Source of the DNA: Polyangiaceae bacterium
Lineage (GTDB): Bacteria; Myxococcota_A; Polyangia; Polyangiales; Polyangiaceae
NCBI GenBank assembly: GCA_009780955.1
Contig: WQZB01000010.1
Location: forward strand, 1-64,000
Reading direction: 5' to 3'
DNA length: 64,000 bases
The notes below the pieces were generated by a model. That model was not told where the DNA came from. It saw only the letters and a program-made list of their open reading frames with translations, and made no database searches. Shown here one piece after another: positions 28,378 through 56,234 of the stretch. Every line of letters begins with the position of its first letter. The stretch's first letter is position 1. Position numbers and translations under genes: made by a program.

Positions 28378-28438
28378 CAGCGGACCGGCGGTTGCTTCGC
28401 GCAGCGTAGTCAGCATCGCGTCAAATCGAAAGCGGTCA
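28378..28438 (-). repeat. R1 element, shortened copy at the end of the TPR/HEAT gene
   Basis: On the minus strand, TGACCGCTTTCGATTTGACG begins exactly at the stop codon of the TPR/HEAT gene. A short interior match (AGCGGACCGG) lies about 40 bases further on. Most of the right half is missing. The left arm is the one next to the gene, as in all other copies. Confidence 0.75.
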
Positions 28439-36462: not shown

Positions 36463-36490
36463 GTAGGGGCGTATGGCCATACGCCCCTAC
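36463..36490. repeat. R3, perfect 28-bp palindrome, copy 1
   Basis: GTAGGGGCGTATGG followed immediately by its exact reverse complement. The identical 28 bases occur at 56096-56123 inside ribE. Here it sits inside a copy of R1 downstream of hemC, and appears to have inserted into it. Confidence 0.9.
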
Positions 36491-54290: not shown

Positions 54291-55472
54291 TTACCCCAGA
54301 TGAGACGCGTTCGCGGCGTTCGTGCTAAGTGCAACGCTGCCGGTTACCTCGAGACCGAAGCCCGAGAGCCCGGCAATCTTACGCGGATTGTTCGTGAGCA
54401 AGCAGATCTTGTGCAGCCCAAGATCTGCCAAGATCTGCGCACCAATGCCGAACTCGCGCAGGGGACTGTCGGCTGTTTCCTCTGTCGGAATTGCCGCCTC
54501 GTCAGCAAGGGCAAGTTGCATGAGCTCGGCAGCCACGGACGAGCGCGGCGGAAGGTAAACGATGATGCCGCGCCCGGCTTTCTCGATGCGGCGGATGGCT
54601 TCTCGAAGGTTCCAGCCGCCATCGTGTGGCGTTGACGCAAAGACGTCGCCAAGGGTCGATCCCGAGTGCATACGACAGAGCACGGGGTCGGCTCCCGCGG
54701 ATGAAAGATCACCCTTGCATAGTGCAATGAATTGGCGTTGATCGGTCGATACTTCGTAGGCTCTGGCTGTCCACTCCGTTGACGTTTCATCGAGCGTAAT
54801 GGTGCCGGTGGCAACGCGCCGAACGAGCCGCTCGGTTTGCAGGCGGTACTGGACGAGATCGGCAATCGTGAGGATGCGAAGGCCGTGCTTCTTGCTGAAG
54901 ACTTCGAGGTCCGGCATGCGGGCCATCGATCCGTCATCACTCATGATCTCGCAGATGACACCGGCTGGTGTGAGGCCTGCGAGGCGCGCGAGGTCGACGG
55001 AGCCTTCGGTTTGCCCGGTGCGCACAAGCACTCCTCCGTTACGTGCGCGGAGCGGAAAGACGTGGCCCGGTGTCACGAGCTCCTCGGGGCGGCACGCGGG
55101 ATTCGTTGCGACACGGATTGTGTGTGCCCTGTCGGCCGCGCTGACGCCTGTGGTTACGCCGTGCCGCGCTTCGATGCTTACGGTGAATGCGGTGCCAAGT
55201 GTGGGACCCGAGCGGCCAGGAGCCGCCATCATGGGTAGTGCAAGCCGATGAATCTGCTCTTCGGTCATCGTGAGGCAGACAATGCCGCGGCCGTGAGTGA
55301 CCATGAAGTTGATCGCTTCAGGCGAGACGAACTTGGCTGCCATCGTGAGATCGCCTTCGTTTTCGCGGTCTTCATCGTCGACGAGGATGACCATCTTGCC
55401 GGCGCGAATGTCGGCAATGGCAGCGTTCACGCGCTCAAGAAGGTTCGGTTCAATGTTGAGAACAGGAGCCAT
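54291..55472 (-). CDS. ribBA: RibBA-type protein: DHBP synthase with a degenerate GTP cyclohydrolase II domain
   Basis: A 393-residue protein. The N-terminal RibB domain (3,4-dihydroxy-2-butanone 4-phosphate synthase) is intact: VDDEDRENEGDL, THGRGIVCLTM, RHGVTTGVSAADRA, PGHVFPLRARNGGV. The C-terminal RibA-like domain is not: the zinc site SECLTGD is SGSTLGD here, the CDC pair is replaced by PHD, and the catalytic QEGRxIGL is replaced by PPRSSVAAEL. All three zinc cysteines are therefore gone. The protein should make only DHBP; a separate GTP cyclohydrolase II must exist elsewhere. A start at 55472 (MAPVLN) is preferred over the TTG at 55487. Confidence 0.9.
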   Translation of the reverse strand: MAPVLNIEPNLLERVNAAIADIRAGKMVILVDDEDRENEGDLTMAAKFVSPEAINFMVTHGRGIVCLTMTEEQIHRLALPMMAAPGRSGPTLGTAFTVSIEARHGVTTGVSAADRAHTIRVATNPACRPEELVTPGHVFPLRARNGGVLVRTGQTEGSVDLARLAGLTPAGVICEIMSDDGSMARMPDLEVFSKKHGLRILTIADLVQYRLQTERLVRRVATGTITLDETSTEWTARAYEVSTDQRQFIALCKGDLSSAGADPVLCRMHSGSTLGDVFASTPHDGGWNLREAIRRIEKAGRGIIVYLPPRSSVAAELMQLALADEAAIPTEETADSPLREFGIGAQILADLGLHKICLLTNNPRKIAGLSGFGLEVTGSVALSTNAANASHLG

Positions 55473-55496
55473 ATCGAAAATACCCAAAAGTGCGTA

Positions 55497-56234
55497 TTAC
55501 AAGTATCCGGCGCGTTGAAGGCGCTCGAGCCACGCGCTGTCGTCACCAGGGCTTGCTCCGCCACCGGTGCGGGTCTCGAGCAGGCGCGCAACATAGCGGG
55601 CGAGCAGATCGACCTCGATGTTGACCTTCGCGCCCACGAGCAGAGTATCGAGCGAAGTTTTTTCTTGTGTGTGGGCGATGATCATCACATCGAACGTGCC
55701 CTCCGCAACGCCGTTGACGGTGAGGCTGACGCCGTTGATGCAGATGGATCCTTTGGGTGCAATGAAGCGGTCTAGTGAGTCTGGAACGCAGAAAGTCATT
55801 TTTACAGAGGCGCCCTCTGGCGATCGGCTTTGGAGGACACCGATGCCGTCAACGTGGCCGCTAACCCAATGCCCGCCCATGCGCCCGCCCACGAGAACCG
55901 CGCGCTCGAGGTTCAAGGTTGCACCGACTTCGAGCGTGCCGAGGGTCGTTTTCGCAAGGGTCTCGGTTGACACGTCGGCTTCGAAAACGCTTGGCTTTCC
56001 TGCGCTGCCGGGCTCTTGAATGGCGGCAACGGTCAAGCACACTCCGTCAACGGCAATGGATTCGCCAATGGCAAGCGGCTCTCGACCCAAGCCCTGTAGG
56101 GGCGTATGGCCATACGCCCCTACGTGGTTCACACCAGCCAAGCCAAAGTCGCCGCGAATGACAAGGCGCGCATCACGCCCATGCGCCATACGGCGCACGA
56201 GCGTACCTTTCACTTCGACCAAACCCGTAAACAT
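55497..56234 (-). CDS. ribE: Riboflavin synthase alpha subunit with a palindrome inserted in frame
   Basis: A 245-residue enzyme that forms riboflavin from two lumazine molecules. Both lumazine-binding barrels are present (MFTGLVEVKGTLVRR, IAVDGVCLTV, MGGHWVSGHVDGIG, CINGVSLTVNGV). Within the first barrel, between RLVIRGDFGLAG and REPLAIGES, there is an extra segment, VNHVGAYGHTPLQGLG, largely encoded by the 28-bp palindrome R3. The frame is kept. The extra loop lies between strands where relatives have a short turn, so the enzyme is probably still active. It is the first gene of the rib-nusB operon; no FMN riboswitch is seen upstream. Confidence 0.92.
   Translation of the reverse strand: MFTGLVEVKGTLVRRMAHGRDARLVIRGDFGLAGVNHVGAYGHTPLQGLGREPLAIGESIAVDGVCLTVAAIQEPGSAGKPSVFEADVSTETLAKTTLGTLEVGATLNLERAVLVGGRMGGHWVSGHVDGIGVLQSRSPEGASVKMTFCVPDSLDRFIAPKGSICINGVSLTVNGVAEGTFDVMIIAHTQEKTSLDTLLVGAKVNIEVDLLARYVARLLETRTGGGASPGDDSAWLERLQRAGYL
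56096..56123. repeat. R3, perfect 28-bp palindrome, copy 2, inside ribE
   Basis: Identical to the palindrome at 36463-36490 (half-site GTAGGGGCGTATGG). It lies within the ribE reading frame and encodes part of the peptide VGAYGHTPL, without a frameshift or stop. A palindrome that remains open in frame can insert into a gene with little damage, as described for Rickettsia palindromic elements. Confidence 0.9.

Follow-up and report, generated by a model that had tools for sequence, protein, structure and literature searches.

A palindromic element, probably a REP, read in frame within riboflavin synthase and other genes of a Polyangiaceae bacterium

The gene for riboflavin synthase in a Polyangiaceae bacterium carries within its reading frame a perfect 28-bp palindrome that is very probably a double-foot REP of the GTAG superfamily, mobilized by RAYTs and retained within genes where it falls in tolerant loops. 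A reading made from the sequence alone had proposed that a repeated palindromic element forms part of the coding frame of this gene, and this core of the proposal is supported by what we describe here. On motifs and on the placement of the repeats, the closest known kind appears to be the GTAG/double-foot REP that accompanies a RAYT of subclass 2.4.

The window, by which we mean the whole 64,000-nucleotide stretch of DNA that was analyzed, contains the palindrome (GTAGGGGCGTATGGCCATACGCCCCTAC) twice in exact form, against no copies expected from shuffled sequence. Both copies lie where the sequence-only reading had put them, one in ribE and the other after a gene that we take, following that reading, to be hemC (Table 1). 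As single-stranded DNA, the 28 nucleotides fold into a hairpin of 12 bp closed by a 4-nt loop (−12.6 kcal/mol, z = −5.65), in which the GTAG foot pairs with CTAC. The palindrome is identical on either strand, and its three frames read VGAYGHTPL, RGVWPYAPT and a third with a TAG stop. A search of the literature for the encoded peptides and the arm sequence turned up nothing relevant. An Rfam identity was also considered and rejected, the sole match being to a microRNA, below its gathering score and attributable to chance.

Table 1. Positions of the palindrome, its second copy and the neighboring riboflavin genes in the window.
Feature	Coordinates	Strand	Basis or remark
Perfect 28-bp palindrome, probable double-foot REP, GTAG...CTAC, core TATGGCCATA	56096..56123	.	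Sequence and inverted-repeat search (I8/I9)
Second exact copy of the palindrome, intergenic, ~38 bp past the hemC stop	36463..36490	.	
ribE, riboflavin synthase alpha chain, 245 aa	55497..56234	-	ORF and Pfam PF00677
RibE codons VGAYGHTPL from the palindrome	56097..56123	-	Translation; base 56096 opens the next codon
ribBA-like gene, directly downstream of ribE	54291..55487	-	ORF

RibE contains two lumazine-binding stretches (Pfam PF00677, E=1.9e-43), and its neighbor is presumably a DHBP synthase/GTP cyclohydrolase II, a name that we draw from recognized sequence features. Translation bears out the earlier proposal that the palindrome encodes VGAYGHTPL. The idea of an inserted element would have been undone by homologues sharing these residues without the palindrome; all nine RibE homologues compared from the genus lack VGAYGHTPL, and the idea is not refuted. 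The segment sits in a loop whose length varies across the genus, with differences of up to 19 residues. The loop in our protein is 8 residues longer than that of the nearest genus homologue (from genome G010), which is 66% identical, and 4 to 19 residues longer than those of the others; a close relative with an empty site was not found among them. Against solved riboflavin synthases, the residues of RibE before position 52 do not align. Since ribE is the only match in a search of the genome, the protein is presumably functional with its segment in place, and the loop peptide is probably harmless or neutral. The description of the palindrome as inserted in frame survives only in part. It is indeed read through in frame in ribE, but an insertion of exactly 28 bp would shift the frame, 28 not being divisible by three, and a further change in length is needed.

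The genome from which the window comes (4.2 Mb in 112 contigs, 98.7% complete) holds 77 exact, perfectly conserved copies of the 28-mer, which disposes of the possibility, allowed for by the sequence-only reading, that no exact match existed beyond the two it had seen. Looser searches returned 121 matches with up to three mismatches and 121 with the same arms around any 10-bp core, the two sets being different. Alongside the 28-mer are sister families built on the same 9-bp arms, GTAGGGGCG-N10-CGCCCCTAC, with other palindromic cores (for example CAGCATGCTG and CGATTCATCG), and asymmetric single-foot units with these arms, such as GTAGGGGCGCCATTCATGGCGCCC, are mixed into the same clusters. Further REP half-sites lie within 150 bp of 38 of 52 copies, forming BIME-like clusters; high copy number with dimers or clusters is likewise a mark of GTAG REPs. 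No target-site duplication of three or more bases was seen at any of 50 copies. The absence of such duplications is expected of the HUH/Y1 single-strand chemistry of the IS200/IS605 group. The CT dinucleotide at which other TnpA-REPs are reported to cleave is not enriched beside the copies (4 of 100 flanks).

We surveyed the context of 63 copies, those that come first in the contig listing and hence a non-random sample, and 12 of them (about a fifth) lie in frame within ten real genes. Besides RibE, the carriers are an AMP-dependent ligase, a ketoacyl synthase, OpcA, a GltD-like oxidoreductase, a polysaccharide deacetylase, LuxE, a PP2C phosphatase, BioF and a large protein with three copies, which we take to be an exonuclease subunit. 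Eleven of the 12 in-frame copies use the V-G-A frame. Compared with its counterpart in G010, OpcA is longer by 28 residues, a whole REP cluster being present there. A 1076-aa ORF (locus L173, G000:C37 16300-21200) has three in-frame double-foot REPs, at positions 1472, 1535 and 3362, two with the core TATGGCCATA and one with CAGCATGCTG.

Three RAYT-like genes reside in the same genome, on contigs C60, C56 and C12. The Pfam Y1_Tnp model at its default threshold found none of them, since the domain is broken up by REP units inside it; they were recovered with a relaxed Y1_Tnp threshold and the NF047646 profile. The C12 protein matches the latter (REP_Tyr_transpos) with E=2.3e-13 and 50 bits, under the 80-bit cut-off of the profile. 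The C60 protein has the motifs NHLH, WQRNY and YIHNNP, the C56 protein NHVH and YIRDNP, and the C12 protein NHLH, WQRNY and YVRDNP. REPs are linked to these genes and also lie inside them. In C60, an exact 28-mer stands 22 bp upstream of the ATG, there are REP units downstream too, and an in-frame REP dimer lies between HUH and Tyr. C56 is flanked on both sides by REP units, and a REP dimer sits within it at the corresponding position; its ORF ends within the REP region, and the internal copy looks frameshifted. C12 contains three tandem in-frame units, GTAGGGGCGGCCCCCCGTGGCCGCCCC, between HUH and Tyr, and no REP units were found just outside the gene. REP units recur at this HUH-Tyr spot in RAYT-like proteins of the genus relative G010, where they are in frame, and of a Zixibacteria locus (L085). 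A search of PDB sequences with the C60 protein gave no match at E<=1. A different, longer Y1 protein of 368 aa (L142, G056:C420) has GTAGGGG shortly before its gene and again inside it.

How do these elements compare with systems already described? Binding and cleavage of single-stranded REPs, in which GTAG is a key motif, have been shown for the TnpA-REPs of E. coli, Stenotrophomonas and Marinomonas (PMC8266576). Subclass 2.4 (PMC6006769; Bertels group 4) combines double-foot REPs, defined by GT[AG]G at the 5' end and its reverse complement at the 3' end, with in-frame REPs inside the RAYT, generally between HUH and Y. The likeness is close: a long REP with GTAG at the 5' end and CTAC at the 3' end, RAYTs with the NHxH, WQ and Y-x-x-x-NP motifs that make up the Y1/HUH signature, REPs flanking the RAYT in C60 and C56, and REPs in frame between HUH and Tyr in C12 and C60. 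The differences are that the hydrophobic residue of HUH is L in two of our three genes whereas the published consensus is I/F/V, that the Y motif is DNP rather than NNP in two of the three, and that Myxococcota are not named in the main text of that paper. With the GTAG-tagged REPs of Di Nocera et al. 2013 (PMC3733652), the palindrome shares the tag, the high copy number, the dimers and clusters, and some read-through of genes; theirs, however, have an unpaired GTAG at one end, whereas here both feet pair. GTAGGGG does not occur in the main text of PMC3733652.

The sequence-only reading had likened the palindrome to the Rickettsia elements. As an analogy this is fair, both being palindromic elements that sit in frame within genes, but the family is the wrong one: the Rickettsia repeats belong to CGTC families, whose REPs have no dedicated transposase, or to the longer RPE-1 (PMC3733652), whereas ours has a GTAG tag and resident RAYTs. 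Nor is such an element unexpected outside Rickettsia, as that reading had it, since REPs within genes, DNA-repair genes included, were reported for many species (PMC3733652) and REPs inside subclass 2.4 RAYTs have been described as well (PMC6006769).

Several other explanations can be put forward for the palindrome. One is that it never moves at all and is a regulatory or structural site (an operator, a terminator hairpin or a site for a nucleoid protein) held by selection at each place. The extreme identity of 77 copies and the strong hairpin would suit such a site, and yet about a fifth of the inspected copies lie in coding genes at unrelated positions, several cores share the same arms in one genome, the copies are grouped with further REP units and adjoin RAYT genes, and 10 of 11 genus mates do without the palindrome. 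We consider this very improbable. That the extra residues of RibE are an ancient functional feature, serving oligomerization for instance, and palindromic by coincidence, is scarcely credible: the reading frame is kept and ribE is apparently intact, but at least seven other, unrelated proteins of the genome share these nine residues and the nine genus homologues lack them, both of which already contradict the idea.

A closer contender accepts a mobile REP but has it spread by copying and replacing, through hairpin template switching or gene conversion or through the collapse of an inserted dimer, and not by clean insertion of 28 bp. Relative to G010, the net change is −2 residues in the ketoacyl synthase, +5 in LuxE and +8 in RibE, where about +9 or +10 might be looked for, and such changes in single-copy genes are at odds with the clean insertion of 28 bp; there is also the suggestion in PMC6006769 that double-foot REPs could come from a central deletion in an inverted dimer. 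Against this, the relatives compared are only about 65 to 75% identical, so replacement and later indels are indistinguishable; the loops vary in all of them, later indels explain the lengths equally well, and the existence of 77 identical copies speaks for the 28-mer itself as the multiplying unit. We regard copying and replacing as unlikely. The ketoacyl synthase and LuxE comparisons would likewise allow a double-foot REP that spreads by overwriting, swapping loop codons with little or no change in length, a notion of which we are decidedly doubtful.

Our preferred reading, a double-foot REP mobilized by RAYTs, would work as follows. The palindrome would be a non-autonomous element whose single-stranded form folds into the 12-bp hairpin and offers a GTAG foot on either strand. 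The resident RAYTs (TnpA-REP, HUH/Y1) would recognize and bind the hairpin together with a guide sequence, cleave nearby single-stranded DNA and join the copies to DNA elsewhere; it is these enzymes that we infer to be the agents of movement. Copies kept within genes would be those in protein loops that tolerate changes in length, free of stops and with a net change that preserves the frame, and the copy in ribE would be one of these, adding VGAYGHTPL.

The element has a wide reach. Among the matches listed in a GTDB scan were at least 118 stretches with at least 124 copies and at least 60 distinct cores. In the listed matches, 86 cores are perfectly palindromic and 33 are mismatched at a single one of their five pairs, a symmetry that chance would not give. 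To go by record titles, the same arms occur in at least about 20 phyla among the matches listed, and some of the listed copies from other phyla are likewise translated as part of long ORFs, using the same frames. That the nine-base arms recur across so many phyla suggests that RAYTs of this type widely share one rule of recognition. Within a sample of 284 genomes of the phylum, the palindrome was present in seven. RAYTs were found in six of these seven carriers versus 155 of the other 277 genomes, a difference in the same direction that is not significant (Fisher p=0.12). A relative from the same family (G098) has 11 copies of the palindrome and a best RAYT match of only E=0.096, which could mean either that its enzyme has diverged or that its REPs are a relic population. 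In the public loci L127 (29-1324) and L129 (3511-3538), the palindrome lies between matching flanks, CTTACGCACAGATGC... and ...ACCACCATCT, which recur inverted in L127, as if the REPs there were located in the ends of insertion sequences.

Double-foot REPs that are read within genes are already in the literature as a kind. What we add is a host lineage unnamed in the main texts of those papers, a high proportion of copies residing in genes and the question of insertion versus replacement. The genes concerned are apparently working ones and include the sole riboflavin synthase found and an enzyme of the biotin pathway, and such an in-gene population of REPs with RAYTs lends itself well as a natural experiment on REP movement and on the tolerance of proteins.

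One further repeat in the window deserves mention. The motif CGCGTCAAATCGAAAGCGGTC has 14 matches with up to three mismatches, against 0.01 expected, at 28417, 32226, 36425, 45942, 46045, 49082, 51569, 51594, 51696, 51719, 51821, 57007, 61033 and 61147. It is possibly another repeat family. Several copies form facing pairs spaced by about 25 to 115 bp, and one stands immediately ahead of the REP palindrome at 36463.
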